Source of the DNA: Gammaproteobacteria bacterium
GTDB lineage: Bacteria; Pseudomonadota; Gammaproteobacteria; SZUA-152
Direction of reading: 5' to 3'
NCBI GenBank assembly: GCA_029882975.1
Contig: JAOUJW010000006.1
Location: forward strand, 62,001 to 126,000
DNA length: 64,000 bases
The position numbers were made by a program, and so were the translations under genes. The notes below the pieces were generated by a model that made no database searches, had not been told where the DNA came from, and was given only the letters and a program-made list of their open reading frames with translations. This document shows positions 43,232 through 51,141 of this stretch, in pieces (position 1 is the first letter of the stretch; every line of letters starts with the position of its first letter).

Positions 43232-43255
43232 AGTTGCAGCCTTATATTTATTGTG

Positions 43256-43280
43256 CCGGGCAGGCCAGTGACCTGCCCGG
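43256..43280 (-). promoter_or_regulatory. GC-rich hairpin between dsrC and dsrM
   Basis: CCGGGCAGG (43256-43264) and CCTGCCCGG (43272-43280) make a perfect 9-bp stem with a 7-base loop. Read on the minus strand it is followed by CACAATAAATA, with no T run. It may protect the dsrC mRNA 3' end or reduce read-through, giving more dsrC than dsrM. A second, bulged inverted repeat lies at 43346-43372 across the dsrC stop codon. Confidence 0.6.
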
Positions 43281-43356
43281 TGATGTTGCTATGTTGTCAC
43301 ACGTAACGTGCTGTTACATTTAGTGCTATACAAAATGTTACATGCAACCGGTGTGG

Positions 43357-46055: not shown

Positions 46056-46095
46056 TGTATTTAAACCTCCAAGGTTAAATGTCTTATTTGTTTGT

Positions 46096-46115
46096 CCCCG
46101 CCCGGAAGGGCGGGG
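46096..46115 (-). promoter_or_regulatory. Intercistronic hairpin between dsrA and dsrB
   Basis: CCCCGCCC and GGGCGGGG form a perfect 8-bp GC stem with a 4-base loop. The minus-strand sequence after it (ACAAACAAATAAG) has no T run. It lies in the 86-base gap between dsrA and dsrB and may be an RNA stability or processing element. Confidence 0.55.
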
Positions 46116-46141
46116 CGCAGCGTGTTATCTCGTTTGAGGTT

Positions 46142-47446
46142 TTAACCGGCTGCTTTACGTTCTTTCCATTTCTCGGCTTCTTCGTCCCACTTGTCCATAC
46201 GCACATAGTTACTGATGCGTGGGTTGTTGATCATGTTGGGATCGATATCCAGATCCAGACCTTCGAGGAAGTTCACCAGGCCGATACGGTCGATGGTTTC
46301 ACCTACTCGCTCGTGTTCCAGTGCATTTTCCGCCCAAAAATCGATCATTTCTTCAGCCAACTCAACCAGGCCTTCGTAATCCTCTTCGGTTTCCAATTTC
46401 ATGAAAGGAATCACCACGGTGCCCATGGTGTCACCGATTTTCAGAGTACGTTTACCGCCCACCAGAATGGTGACGCCTTTGTCATTACCTGGAGACAGAG
46501 CTTTGTTCATAACGTTGAGGCAGTGCATACAACGTACGCAGTTGCGGTTGTCCACATCCAGAGTGTCATCATCGTTGAGAGACAGCGCATTGGTGGGGCA
46601 GTTGTTAATCACACTGTCGATTACATATTTGCGGCCTTTTTCAGCAACAAATTTTTTCACTTCAGCTTGATCCACTTGCATGTCATCGCGCCAGGTTCCG
46701 ATCACGGAAAAGTCAGAGCGTTGGATGGAGTTCATGCAGTCATTGGGACAACCGGAAACTTTGAATTTGAATTTGTAAGGTAATGCGGGGCGGTGCATAT
46801 CGTCGAGGAAGTTATTGACCAACAGACGATGGATCTTTTGCTCATTGGCGCAAGACTGTTCGCAACGAGCGGCACCAATACAAGACATACCGGTACGAAC
46901 ACAAGGACCGGCACCGCCTAAGTCCCAGCCGTAGTCATTGATTTCATCAAAGAAGTGCTGGGTGTTGGCAGTGGTGGTTCCAATGAACATAATGTTGCCG
47001 GTTTGGCCATGGAAGGCGATCAGACCGGAACCGTATTTGTTCCAGGATTCAGACAGCTGACGCAGCATGCCGGTAGAGTAATGGTTACCTGCGGGAGGTT
47101 GAATACGCAGGGTATGGAATTCTTTGGATTCGGGGAACATGGCTTTGCCATCGTCGCCCATCAGTTCGGTGAAGCGGGGGATGATGCCACCACCGTAACC
47201 GAACACACTCACCGTGCCACCTTTCCAGTAACCCAGTCGGGTCTTGTAGGAGTGTTCCAGCTGACCCAGCAGGTCAATCATCATGTTGTTGTCATTGGCG
47301 ATACGCTTGAGGCCGGTAACAAAACTTGGCCATGGGCCTGATTCCAGCTCATCCAGCATGGGGGTGTTATGAAACGGTTTACTGGAAGTTTTTTCCTTGG
47401 GTAAGTAAGTGTGATGTTTTTCCGGGTTCTTCGGTGTTTGTGCCAT
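46142..47446 (-). CDS. dsrA: DsrA, sulfite reductase alpha subunit (oxidative type)
   Basis: The 434-residue subunit has the siroheme-binding motif CVRTGMSCIGAARCEQSCANEQ (in parts) and SGCPNDCMNSIQRSDFSVIG, and a ferredoxin insertion with CPTNALSL and NCVRCMHCLNVM. The gene context (dsrEFH, dsrL, dsrN, dsrR) indicates the reverse, sulfur-oxidising enzyme. GAGGAG precedes the ATG. It is the first gene of the long minus-strand operon. Its leader contains three small stem-loops (47488-47506, 47518-47536, 47581-47598). Confidence 0.97.
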   Translation of the reverse strand: MAQTPKNPEKHHTYLPKEKTSSKPFHNTPMLDELESGPWPSFVTGLKRIANDNNMMIDLLGQLEHSYKTRLGYWKGGTVSVFGYGGGIIPRFTELMGDDGKAMFPESKEFHTLRIQPPAGNHYSTGMLRQLSESWNKYGSGLIAFHGQTGNIMFIGTTTANTQHFFDEINDYGWDLGGAGPCVRTGMSCIGAARCEQSCANEQKIHRLLVNNFLDDMHRPALPYKFKFKVSGCPNDCMNSIQRSDFSVIGTWRDDMQVDQAEVKKFVAEKGRKYVIDSVINNCPTNALSLNDDDTLDVDNRNCVRCMHCLNVMNKALSPGNDKGVTILVGGKRTLKIGDTMGTVVIPFMKLETEEDYEGLVELAEEMIDFWAENALEHERVGETIDRIGLVNFLEGLDLDIDPNMINNPRISNYVRMDKWDEEAEKWKERKAAG

Positions 47447-48020
47447 TGCCCATTTCTCCTCGTTATGAATTCAGATTCATTTCAAGTGGTACGTCGGTTA
47501 CGTACCGGTAATCGTATTCCGGCATGCTGCGCCGGATCCAAAAATGTCTGTTGTCGGTCGCTTACAGTCGAGCCGCAAATTCTCTTGATTTTAAGAGAGA
47601 CACCTCGATGTGCAAAGAGACCATAAGGGTTAGAAGGTCTCGCACCGTTCTATCTCTAAAGTGATATTAAGGATTAAAAGCTCGCTTTTTGCGCAATATC
47701 ACTTCATGTTTAACAAGCTGTTTACAAACCGCTTGTGTAATTGTGTTGTTCATTAATTAACCTTAATTCCAGGCTCTTCTATTAGCGTCTAAAAGGGGTG
47801 GTCTATCCCTTATGCGATGTTGTGAGTCATCGGATTTGTCGCCATAGTACCACCTGTACTAAATGCGTGGTTATTAATAGCAGTTTTGCAATTACATTAC
47901 AACATATTAATATGGTAATTTGCTAAACTCAAAAGGACCATCCGATGCTGTATCGGATGGAACGTAGAACTTTAAAGACCGAGAATGTGATTTTTTCTAT
48001 AAAATAGCCTGTTTAAGTTT
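47447..48020. promoter_or_regulatory. Divergent control region between dsrA and the Cas6-like operon
   Basis: No gene lies in these 574 bases. From left to right there are three inverted repeats near dsrA (GGTACGT/ACGTACC 47488-47506; TCCGGC/GCCGGA 47518-47536; TCTCTT/AAGAGA 47581-47598). There is a widely spaced perfect 10-base inverted repeat AAGTGATATT (47659-47668) and AATATCACTT (47695-47704), and ACAAGC/GCTTGT at 47713-47736. A 12-base palindrome CATATTAATATG lies at 47903-47914. A possible plus-strand promoter is TTGCAA (47886-47891), 16 bases, TAATAT (47908-47913). The palindrome overlaps that -10, which suggests an operator. Confidence 0.6.
47938..47960 (+). promoter_or_regulatory. 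Leader hairpin of the Cas6-like operon
   Basis: CCATCCGAT (47938-47946) and ATCGGATGG (47952-47960) form a perfect 9-bp stem with the 5-base loop GCTGT. It lies about 60 bases before the first ATG and about 25 bases after the proposed -10, so it should be near the start of the mRNA. No T run follows (AACGTAGAAC). Size and shape resemble the hairpins that Cas6 proteins bind in CRISPR repeats, but no repeat array is present. Confidence 0.5.
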
Positions 48021-48965
48021 ATGAAAGCCTTGCAAAAAAAGTCTTACGGTTGCCATCGCAGTCCGTTCCACCCTGATCATCAGGCCTTGTACCGGCAATG
48101 GCGTGAGGAGAAGCTGCAGGCCTATCCCCGCAACGTTGCTGAGCTCATTGTGCCTTTGAAGGACTTTATAAGTCCCAAATCCTTGGAAAAACAAGCCTTG
48201 TTGGAGCTTTGTCGAAAAACCAATATGGCTGTATATAGTTGCGAAAAACAACAGGATATCAACAAGGACTCGGTGCGGCATTTCTGCGCCCGCTTTGGTT
48301 TACAACGCCTGGACCATAATTTATGTTCCGATAATGATGGTATCTCCGCGCTACAGGTAATGCCCGGAGGTACTCATGCTGAATATATTCCGTACAGTAA
48401 TCACGCCATCAACTGGCATACTGACGGTTACTATAATGCGCCGCAGCAGTGGATCCGGGGTATGGTGTTGCATTGTGTTCAACCGGCTCAGGAAGGTGGG
48501 ATCAATGAGTTAATGGACCCGGAGATGGCCTACTTACTGTTACGTGATATGAATCCCGATTATATTGTGGCATTAATGCAGGAGGATGCCATGAGTATCC
48601 CGGCTAATGTGCAAAATGGTGTGGAAATCCGGCCACGACAGACCGGGCCGGTTTTTTCCATTAGCGAATCCGGCGATCTGCACATGCGTTACACGGCGCG
48701 CACACGCTCTATCGAATGGAAAGAGGATGAAGCCACCCGCCAGGCAGTCCGTGCCCTTGAGCAAATACTGCGGGAGGACTCACCGTTTAAGTTTCAGGTG
48801 CGACTGCAGGCCGGGCAGGGTTTGTTGTCAAACAACATTTTGCACACACGAAGTTGTTTTACTGATGACCCGGATAATAAACGCTTGATGTTCAGGGCCA
48901 GGTTTTACGATCGAATCCAAGGAAGCGGTATTGATTCTTTGTGTTTCAGCCCAAATATGACATAG
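48021..48965 (+). CDS. TauD-type Fe(II)/2-oxoglutarate oxygenase
   Basis: The 314-residue protein belongs to the TauD/TfdA superfamily. The metal triad is visible: H133 and D135 in NWHTDGYYN and H275 in NNILHTRSCF. R288 or R292 (KRLMFRARFYDR) is likely to bind 2-oxoglutarate. The family includes taurine dioxygenase (releases sulfite) and gamma-butyrobetaine hydroxylase. The substrate here is unknown; the placement with a DsrC paralogue next to dsr suggests a sulfur compound or a protein/RNA target. It is the first of five same-strand genes. The N-terminal 100 residues are more divergent than the core. Confidence 0.85.
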   Translation: MKALQKKSYGCHRSPFHPDHQALYRQWREEKLQAYPRNVAELIVPLKDFISPKSLEKQALLELCRKTNMAVYSCEKQQDINKDSVRHFCARFGLQRLDHNLCSDNDGISALQVMPGGTHAEYIPYSNHAINWHTDGYYNAPQQWIRGMVLHCVQPAQEGGINELMDPEMAYLLLRDMNPDYIVALMQEDAMSIPANVQNGVEIRPRQTGPVFSISESGDLHMRYTARTRSIEWKEDEATRQAVRALEQILREDSPFKFQVRLQAGQGLLSNNILHTRSCFTDDPDNKRLMFRARFYDRIQGSGIDSLCFSPNMT

Positions 48966-49005: not shown

Positions 49006-49233
49006 ATGTTATATCTCAGTGAAGTTTTGATTCAGAATCCGGATTTGGAATCCTTCGAACAATTGTTAGAAATCGTGCAACAAAGAGCACAGGGCGAAGT
49101 CCACTTGAAAATTGATATCAAGCCCAATTATCCGGATACCCCCGCCAACTGGGAGGACCGAATTGAAGGTGCATTTTCCGGTGTATATTCCATGTTTGAT
49201 CCGAAGAAGATCAAAACGGAAGATGATTTTTAG
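49006..49233 (+). CDS. Uncharacterised 75-residue acidic protein
   Basis: The ATG at 49006 follows the ribosome site TAGGAGA, which lies in the loop and arm of a small hairpin (GGTCT/AGACC, 48989-49002). The protein is acidic and mixed alpha/beta (MLYLSEVLIQNPDLESFEQ; GEVHLKIDIKPNYPDTPANW; SMFDPKKIKTEDDF). No family is recognised and it has no Cys. Its place between the oxygenase and the helical protein, with gaps of 40 and 54 bases, puts it in the operon. Confidence 0.75.
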   Translation: MLYLSEVLIQNPDLESFEQLLEIVQQRAQGEVHLKIDIKPNYPDTPANWEDRIEGAFSGVYSMFDPKKIKTEDDF

Positions 49234-49287: not shown

Positions 49288-50004
49288 ATGAAGTTTTTGG
49301 ATTCCAATGACGGTTTGATTGATGCTGACAGTGCTGATGATGCGGCAGTGTCCCTGGAAAAACTCAAGGCGCGCCTGGCGGATTTGCTCCAGCAGGTAAA
49401 AAATCTGCCGCAGAGTGAAAGTCAGGAAAACCAGTTGCAACGGGCACAATTACAGCTACAGTGCGGCGGCATTCTGGTAGACCTGGAAAGAGGCGAGGAA
49501 GCTTTTGAGATTGCGCGAGAGGCTTTTGATACCTATGCTGCTTTGGCTGAGTGGGACGGTGCGGTACAGTGTTGTGATGTGATGTTCCAAGCGGATCAGC
49601 CCGATTCGCTGGCTGCATTGGGGCAGGGGGTATGGTTGGCGGTAACCTTTCCCATTAACCCGGATATTACGGTGAATATGTTAAATCATATCGTAGATGA
49701 AACGCCCGCGGACTCCGACGGTGCTGCCGTAGCTGCTGCTGTGGCCAAATACGTGGTGGATGTGCGTGCCAAGGGTAAATCTCATGAGAACCTGTCCTTT
49801 TTTACCAATAATATGCTGGGTGGTGTGGCGCGACGCCATAGCGATGTGAATACCCAGGAACAGTTTGATTACTGGATTGAAAAGTTGGAATTGAATGACC
49901 CGGCAAAATTCCTTCCCCGCTTGCGTAACGTCGTGGATGTGATGGTGCAAGAGGATTGGTGGGTAGATCGAGAAGCCATTTGGGCTTCTCTACCGGATCA
50001 GTGA
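49288..50004 (+). CDS. Uncharacterised helical (TPR-like) protein
   Basis: The 238-residue protein is acidic and mainly helical. A central stretch (GGILVDLERGEEAFEIAREAFDTY; LAEWDGAVQCCDVMFQADQPDSLAALGQGVW, in parts) resembles helix-turn-helix repeats such as TPR. The second half (VAAAVAKYVVDVRAKGKSHENLSFF; FLPRLRNVVDVMVQEDWWVDREAIW) is not recognised. No signal peptide is seen, so it is cytoplasmic. It lies directly before the Cas6-like gene (30-base gap) and may scaffold it or other proteins of the operon. Confidence 0.75.
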   Translation: MKFLDSNDGLIDADSADDAAVSLEKLKARLADLLQQVKNLPQSESQENQLQRAQLQLQCGGILVDLERGEEAFEIAREAFDTYAALAEWDGAVQCCDVMFQADQPDSLAALGQGVWLAVTFPINPDITVNMLNHIVDETPADSDGAAVAAAVAKYVVDVRAKGKSHENLSFFTNNMLGGVARRHSDVNTQEQFDYWIEKLELNDPAKFLPRLRNVVDVMVQEDWWVDREAIWASLPDQ

Positions 50005-50034: not shown

Positions 50035-50715
50035 ATGTTTTGGGAAGAGGAAAAACCTGAAGTCGAAGTGAGTGTGCCGGACGATGTGGTGGATTTGGTT
50101 TTTTCCATCGCCTGCCGCAGTCTGCCGGTTGATCATGCCTATGAGCTGTCCCAAGCTATCCAGCAGTACTTGCCCTGGTTTAAAGAAGAAGCGCAGGCAG
50201 CGCTGCACACTATTCACGTAGCTGCCAGCAGCAACGGTTGGATACGCCCGGAAAATCCCGATGACGTACTTTACCCTTCACGACGCACCAAGATGATTGT
50301 GCGCATACCCAAACATCGAATAGAAGCGACCAAAGCATTGTGTGGCAAAACACTTGATATCGCCCACAACTCCTTGCAAGTCAAATCGGCCAGTTTGAAA
50401 CCGCTTAGCGATCTCACCACTTTGTTTTCCCGCTATATCGTTTGTGACGCTCAAGACAGTGAAATGGACTTTTTAATGCGGGTTAAAACGCAGCTAAATG
50501 AGATGAACATCAAGCCAAAGAAAATGCTGTGTGGTACGCAGAATTCTTTGCGCACACCCGGTGCGCTTCTAAATGCCCGCAGTCTGATGTTGGCAGAACT
50601 GGAGCTCAAAGAGTCCATCATACTGCAGCAAAACGGCCTCGGGCCGTATTTGGCCATGGGGTGCGGTATATTTATACCCCATAAAGATATTCGTAATTTG
50701 GGAGACGACGATTGA
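50035..50715 (+). CDS. Cas6/Cmx6-like RNA endonuclease homologue
   Basis: The 226-residue protein matches, from memory, the pattern of the Cas6 variant of type I-MYXAN systems (Cmx6). It has DVVDLVFSIACRSLPVDHAYEL with H34, then MIVRIPKHRIEATKALCGKTLDIAHNSLQV, LKPLSDLTTLFSRYIV, and the C-terminal glycine-rich signature NGLGPYLAMGCGIFIPHK (G201-G211). Cas6 proteins have a ferredoxin-like RAMP fold and cut CRISPR precursor RNA at hairpins. No CRISPR array or other cas gene is in the window. Here it is fourth in an operon beside dsr and is followed by a DsrC paralogue. Either it processes another RNA, or it only binds RNA. Confidence 0.72.
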   Translation: MFWEEEKPEVEVSVPDDVVDLVFSIACRSLPVDHAYELSQAIQQYLPWFKEEAQAALHTIHVAASSNGWIRPENPDDVLYPSRRTKMIVRIPKHRIEATKALCGKTLDIAHNSLQVKSASLKPLSDLTTLFSRYIVCDAQDSEMDFLMRVKTQLNEMNIKPKKMLCGTQNSLRTPGALLNARSLMLAELELKESIILQQNGLGPYLAMGCGIFIPHKDIRNLGDDD

Positions 50716-50802: not shown

Positions 50803-51141
50803 ATGTCACTGGAGTTCAATGGTAAAACCATCGCCACCAATGCCGGGGGATATCTGGAGGAAGCGGAAGATTGGTCCGAAGATCTGGCCACGTTTATGGC
50901 AGAGCAGGAAGGTCTGGAACTGACGCAAAAACATTGGGATCTCATCAATTATTTGCGCGATGAGTTTTTCAGCAACAATGGAAACCAGCCCAATACTCGA
51001 AACATTGTTAAAGCCATGTCTGCCAAGTGGGACGAAAAAATCGCCCAGAAAGACGTGTATGATCTGTTCCCTAAGGATCCCAGCAAGCAGGGTGGACGCA
51101 TTGCCGGTCTGCCGGAATCTCGTCGCAAAGGCGGTTATTGA
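50803..51141 (+). CDS. DsrC-family protein lacking both redox cysteines (RspA-like)
   Basis: The ATG at 50803, preceded by AAGGAGG, gives 112 residues. The DsrC/TusE fold is clear (LEFNGKTIATNAGGYLEEAEDWSEDLA; LTQKHWDLINYLRDEFF; DLFPKDPSKQGGRIAGLPESRRKGGY). The Cys equivalent to C98 is Gly (KQGGRIAG) and the terminal Cys is lost (ends KGGY), so it cannot carry sulfur as DsrC does. DsrC-like proteins without these Cys have been described as a regulatory class. It could compete with DsrC for partners such as DsrAB, DsrK or DsrEFH. Confidence 0.88.
   Translation: MSLEFNGKTIATNAGGYLEEAEDWSEDLATFMAEQEGLELTQKHWDLINYLRDEFFSNNGNQPNTRNIVKAMSAKWDEKIAQKDVYDLFPKDPSKQGGRIAGLPESRRKGGY

Follow-up and report, generated by a model that had tools for sequence, protein, structure and literature searches.

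A Cas6-family protein conserved without CRISPR in the gammaproteobacterial rDsr module

Proteins of the Cas6 family normally cut guide RNAs for CRISPR immunity. Besides this role, the dev CRISPR locus of Myxococcus xanthus ties MYXAN-type Cas genes to a cellular programme other than immunity. There, however, the Cas genes stay in a CRISPR locus, whereas in the case described here a Cas6 gene stands alone with a metabolic module, that of the dsr genes for sulfur oxidation by reverse dissimilatory sulfite reductase (rDsr). In the PMC literature, which leaves subscription papers outside its coverage, we found no paper linking Cas6 with dsr. The gene lies in a 64-kb stretch of gammaproteobacterial DNA (the whole analysed stretch is called the window in the following), and its counterparts at other dsr loci, referred to as dsr-type Cas6, allow a comparison with the described systems.

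With type I-MYXAN/I-B Cas6 (Cmx6; PDB 8fcj, 8fcu), the dsr-type protein has in common i) the full-length family match, ii) the double ferredoxin-like fold and iii) the residues His34, Arg90 and Arg133 together with a glycine-rich C-terminal loop. In contrast, the identity amounts to 23-27%, there is no CRISPR context, the protein is near neutral with an acidic N-terminal tail, it sits on a separate tree branch, and it has conserved residues of its own (W3, H58, W69, R84, K163, K217). The Cas6 of Pyrococcus furiosus and Cas6e/Cse3 are also comparable in fold (Z about 11-15) and in a plausible catalytic His at the start of helix 1, but they share about 9-14% identity and process CRISPR repeats.

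Family membership and predicted fold

The 226-aa ORF (Table 1) matches the Pfam Cas6 family PF09559 at 8.5e-59 with 199.2 bits versus a cut-off of 26.7, scores 120 bits with the NCBIfam model TIGR02807 (cas6_cmx6) versus an equivalog cut-off of 98.85, and is also matched by the PADLOC Cas6 models. The coordinates and the two motifs named in the initial annotation, a Cmx6-type N-terminal one and a glycine-rich C-terminal one, proved right. Among PDB sequences, the ORF matches 8fcj, which is a Cas6 from a type I-B CAST, at 2e-10 directly and at 7e-42 by profile. An AlphaFold model built from 16 relatives (pLDDT 86, pTM 0.82) has the double ferredoxin-like (RAMP) fold, and the best 48 Foldseek matches of this model are all Cas6 proteins or CRISPR effector chains. 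VIA-align superimposes it on 8fcj chain B with a Z-score of 23.1 and an rmsd of 2.4 A over 196 residues, so that the comparison with Cas6 folds proposed in the initial annotation, once run, returned a type I-B Cas6 as the best PDB match (Z 23). By sequence and predicted fold, the gene product is thus confirmed to belong to the Cas6 family. A single PF09559 gene is present in the genome as a whole (5.18 Mb, 99.4% complete).

Table 1. Coordinates of the Cas6 gene, its operon and the neighbouring dsr features in the window
Feature	Position	Strand	Remarks
dsrC-dsrM gap with strong hairpin	43232..43356	-	second candidate RNA substrate
Hairpin CCCCGCCC-UUCC-GGGCGGGG in the dsrA-dsrB gap (46056-46141)	46096..46115	-	candidate RNA substrate
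dsrA	46142..47446	-	first gene of the dsr operon; divergent neighbour of the Cas6 operon
Window copy of the TATCCC-N4-GGGATA palindrome	47651..47666		putative operator; 10/12 positions, best site in the expected place
TauD/TfdA-like Fe(II)/2-oxoglutarate dioxygenase	48021..48965	+	first operon gene; at 86/131 Cas6 loci
p75, small acidic protein	49006..49233	+	at 111/131 Cas6 loci
p238, 238-aa protein	49288..50004	+	at 57/131 Cas6 loci, often absent
Cas6-family protein gene, 226 aa	50035..50715	+	PF09559/TIGR02807; ATG at 50035, stop ending 50715
DsrC paralogue	50803..51141	+	no C-terminal redox cysteines; KGGY tail

Association with dsrA and separation from CRISPR

The distribution of the gene was surveyed in 369 Gammaproteobacteria genomes from 272 genera, in which dsrA was called by full or clear partial matches to TIGR02064. 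PF09559 is present in 118 of these genomes and 87 of the genera, nearly always in one copy and also in genomes of 1.0-1.1 Mb (G039 and G287, about 1.1 Mb), while dsrA was found in 119 and Cas1 in 136 genomes. Cas6 and dsrA occur together in 111 genomes, Cas6 only in 7, dsrA only in 8 and neither of them in 243, resulting in an odds ratio of 482 and a Fisher p of about 7e-75, which overstates independence because the sampled genomes are related. Five of the seven Cas6-only genomes (G067, G093, G127, G186, G317) have a contig end within ~400 bases upstream of the operon, and in all five this end falls on the side where dsrA would lie; another one (G318) retains a dsr-side fragment near a contig edge. 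Among the dsrA-only genomes, G123 carries TauD and p75 genes at the edge of a contig, and in several others dsrA is located near a contig end. The only dsrA-only genome that seems well assembled and truly without Cas6 is G207, where dsrA and dsrB overlap. As a separate observation, six loci (L183, L184, L185, L186, L188, L192) belong to carriers in which dsrAB is present a second time, outside the main dsr cluster.

At each of the 91 loci that have the two on one stretch, the Cas6 operon and dsrA are arranged divergently, and the median distance from dsrA to cas6 is 1.6 kb. A phylum-wide sample yielded 3 matches in 249 genomes including the window's own, and in the other two Cas6 is divergent from dsrA as well. 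The family f109 (G109, G226, G325) has kept dsrA, p75 and Cas6 although they do not adjoin, which argues for function and not for mere linkage. The survey of dsr-positive genomes suggested in the initial annotation, here run within the Gammaproteobacteria, found the gene beside dsr and its homologues not mainly beside CRISPR arrays.

The absence of a CRISPR array, cas1/cas2 and effector genes from the window, as read in the initial annotation, was borne out: the array scan detected no CRISPR-like array in the 64 kb, and the cas searches came back empty. No Rfam family reached its gathering score within the window either. Neither Cas1 nor DevR/Cas7 was found in the whole 5.18-Mb genome, and a weak match to a Cas3-like helicase model is uninformative, since this model matched all 14 control genomes too. 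In total, 131 Cas6 loci were compared, made up of the window's own, 115 fetched with ~6-kb flanks where contigs allowed and 15 further ones, a few of which repeat already counted genomes; their genes were identified by profiles for which the window supplied the seeds. None of the 131 dsr-type loci has a CRISPR array by a scan that found arrays at 3 of 7 cyanobacterial CRISPR-type loci, and BLAST with Cas1, Cas2, Cas3, Cas5, Cas7 and Cas8 of these cyanobacterial loci gave nothing at any of the 131. Across the 369 genomes, the association of Cas6 with Cas1 has an odds ratio of 1.5 (p 0.08); Cas1 is absent from 67 of the 118 Cas6 carriers and present somewhere in the remaining 51.

These data bear on the possibility that the protein is a normal Cas6 which matures crRNAs for CRISPR arrays at some other place in the genome. 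Such a role would fit with the passing of TIGR02807, NCBI's equivalog of I-MYXAN Cas6, and with the 51 carriers that have Cas1, but it is strongly disfavoured and very improbable: the own genome is without Cas1 and DevR/Cas7, 67 carriers are without Cas1, the presence of the gene is barely tied to Cas1 and tracks dsrA, and an array or cas genes occur at 0 of 131 loci. By the features tested, the Cas6-family protein of dsr loci does not belong to a CRISPR-Cas system.

The nearest CRISPR relatives that we found are the I-MYXAN/I-B Cas6 proteins of cyanobacterial plasmids, mostly encoded beside cas3, cas8, cas7, cas5 or cas1. Plasmid relatives were cyanobacterial genes only, mostly in CRISPR loci, and the search for relatives in phages returned none. 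A tree built from 111 sequences places the eight CRISPR-type ones on one side of a branch with an SH-aLRT of 97; being a small sample, they give neither the direction nor the date of the split. On a Gloeobacter plasmid (L168), a Cas6 gene was seen without annotated cas genes nearby and with a PAPS-reductase-family gene two genes downstream.

Values of dN/dS between sister cas6 loci are mostly about 0.03-0.2, with dS saturated in some, and the Cas6 gene of dsr loci is under purifying selection. This also concerns the idea that the gene is a neutral leftover of a CRISPR system since lost and stands beside dsr by chance. Although the genome yielded neither an adaptation gene of CRISPR nor a Cas7 gene, which speaks in its favour, this idea is refuted by dN/dS and distribution and retains next to no probability, given purifying selection, an intact ORF and class-wide conservation that includes genomes of ~1.1 Mb (G039, G287). 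Our data show that this Cas6-family protein belongs to the rDsr module of Gammaproteobacteria as a conserved component without CRISPR. A new job has very probably been given to the CRISPR-free Cas6 beside the dsr genes, and we are nearly certain that this Cas6 homologue works outside CRISPR, in the rDsr module.

Operon partners, conserved residues and charge

Gene calls and Pfam agree with the initial annotation in placing Cas6 fourth in an operon divergent from dsrA, with the DsrC paralogue next; the complete order is TauD-like, p75, p238, Cas6 and DsrC paralogue, i.e., five genes. In distribution, p75 occurs in 106 genomes, 105 of them also with the Cas6 gene and G123 as the sole exception; it has the motif DVKPPYPDTPxNWEDRLEAAF. 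Neither p75 nor p238 has a credible relative in Pfam or among PDB sequences, and for p75 there is none among PDB folds either.

A DsrC-family gene lies downstream of Cas6 on the same strand and within 1.7 kb at 98 of the 131 loci. Its product is a full-length member of the DsrC/TusE family (PF04358, TIGR03342), but at 98 of 98 loci it lacks the two C-terminal redox cysteines and ends in an invariant KGGY instead. It is therefore not a sulfur carrier of the DsrC type, and we take it to resemble the regulatory, cysteine-free homologues of DsrC (RspA). Proteins of the TusE type act in tRNA thiolation. The target of Cas6 could accordingly be another cellular RNA, for example a tRNA or small RNA, with a sulfur modification tied to a DsrEFH/DsrC (TusBCD/TusE-like) relay, as the Cas6 gene adjoins a paralogue of this very family. 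Nevertheless, TusE proteins elsewhere work without Cas6 and the Cas6 gene tracks dsrA, which makes such a target improbable. According to earlier work, as cited in a Thiodictyon paper (PMC5944118), the DsrC of A. vinosum is able to bind to DNA that lies upstream of the dsr genes' cluster.

Within the Cas6-family protein, His34 just before helix 1 is found in 99% of the dsr-type proteins and in seven of the eight CRISPR-type ones, and judged from position and conservation it may be the catalytic residue. Arg90, Arg133, Gln198 and the glycine-rich C-terminal loop, whose G201, G203, G209 and G211 are each conserved to at least 96% in the dsr type, are common to dsr-type and CRISPR-type Cas6. Fixed in the dsr type only are Trp3, Trp48, Trp69 (100%), Arg84 (100%), Glu143, Lys163 and Lys217, and His58 is a dsr-type-specific residue of 93% of the members, with Gln instead in L173. 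At one locus (L126, genome G057), Asn replaces the otherwise near-invariant His34.

The charge of the two types differs. While the eight CRISPR Cas6 proteins are basic with net charges of +2 to +13, the dsr-type core carries almost no net charge (median 0, pI 7.0; pI 8.8 for the core of the window protein) and its N-terminal tail is acidic. The active-site scaffold has thus been kept and the generic RNA-binding charge lowered. This cuts against the simple notion of the same enzyme with a new RNA, and we therefore retain, as unlikely but deserving serious attention, the explanation that the RNA function was lost and that the Cas6 fold acts as a protein scaffold together with p75, p238 and the KGGY-tailed DsrC paralogue, in a regulatory or sulfur-relay complex acting on the Dsr enzymes. 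Besides the neutral core and the acidic tail, several features are in line with a scaffold: the residues fixed in the dsr type only (W3, W48, W69, R84, E143, K163, K217) point to a surface that is new, the regular partners are proteins, and the invariant KGGY tail resembles a peptide for docking. However, His34, Arg90, Arg133 and the glycine-rich loop have been kept over deep divergence, for which a pure scaffold has no obvious need. These residues speak for retained RNA work and the lost positive charge against it, and we rate the chances that the Cas6-family protein of the rDsr module acts on RNA at all as even.

Candidate RNA substrates and possible function

Upstream of dsrA, the palindrome TATCCC-N4-GGGATA was recovered at 70 of 89 loci with a best site that agrees at 10 or more of the 12 positions, versus 2 of 89 for shuffled sequences. 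Near offset -34, 63 of 88 loci have another motif, ACCCTACC-N-ATGGGGTG, and beyond it, nearer dsrA, follows CTAGG. We considered the palindrome as a Cas6-type hairpin with a 6-bp stem and a 4-nt loop and rejected it, as the pairing of its arms is not above arm-shuffled controls; as an RNA target it was likewise discarded, being without RNA-type covariation and having a second motif at fixed offset in a promoter-like order. Among genomes with dsrA and cas6 at separate places, several retain the palindrome at dsrA, and upstream of cas6 it does not rise above background. It is probably a conserved dsrA promoter or DNA operator and not a target of Cas6.

Within the dsr operon, the intercistronic dsrA-dsrB gap is unusually structured (median z -2.4 over 69 loci; -3.0 in the window), and so is the dsrC-dsrM gap (median z -3.3 over 37 loci; -2.8 in the window), while the cas6-dsrC2 and dsrH-dsrC gaps have no hairpins above chance (median z near 0). 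In extra dsrAB copies unlinked to cas6, the gaps are mostly short and unstructured, and the hairpin is mostly missing. Both hairpins differ in sequence between genomes, and the dsrA-dsrB hairpin is absent from several carriers, including L127 and L141 with genomes of about 1.1 Mb, so that they count as candidate substrates only; they also resemble ordinary mRNA-stability hairpins. The search for an RNA element common to all Cas6 carriers returned none. The dsrA-dsrB hairpins are the best candidate substrate of the Cas6-family protein.

The initial annotation had proposed a Cas6-type protein recruited to control sulfur-oxidation transcripts. Of this proposal, the fold, the dsr module and the freedom from CRISPR stand, but the control of transcripts is opposed by the lack of a universal RNA element and by the lost basic charge. 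Taken as a whole, a Cas6 that serves the rDsr module by acting on dsr transcript hairpins is the best explanation we can offer, although a tentative one with somewhat less than an even chance. According to this explanation, Cas6 with p75, and with p238 where present, would bind structured RNA through its two ferredoxin-like domains, most likely hairpins of the dsr transcript such as the intercistronic ones between dsrA and dsrB and between dsrC and dsrM. The bound RNA would be processed or capped via the conserved His34, in most members with the assistance of His58, and this step may set the relative amounts of the Dsr proteins, with the cysteine-free DsrC paralogue as a possible regulatory or sensor partner of the module. 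That dsr mRNA is the RNA acted on seems plausible to us, though at less than an even chance. The most specific version, an RNA-processing enzyme of CRISPR origin turned into a dedicated class-wide regulator of energy metabolism, in which a Cas6-p75 complex cuts or caps structured dsr mRNA for Dsr stoichiometry and is coupled to a cysteine-free DsrC-like sensor, we consider unlikely to hold in all its parts.

For genome annotation, our data have a direct implication. As the gene passes NCBI's model, such genes would be automatically annotated as CRISPR-associated Cas6; in the sampled Gammaproteobacteria, however, the Cas6 gene tracks sulfur oxidation and not CRISPR, and a lone Cas6 gene is no warrant for reading CRISPR. 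Even without any action on RNA, the locus defines a set of uncharacterised rDsr-linked proteins. The dsr pathway drives much of marine and symbiotic sulfur oxidation. Should the Cas6-family protein turn out to act on RNA, it would make a strong example of how a Cas nuclease can be domesticated to control metabolism, and post-transcriptional regulation of this pathway would come within reach.
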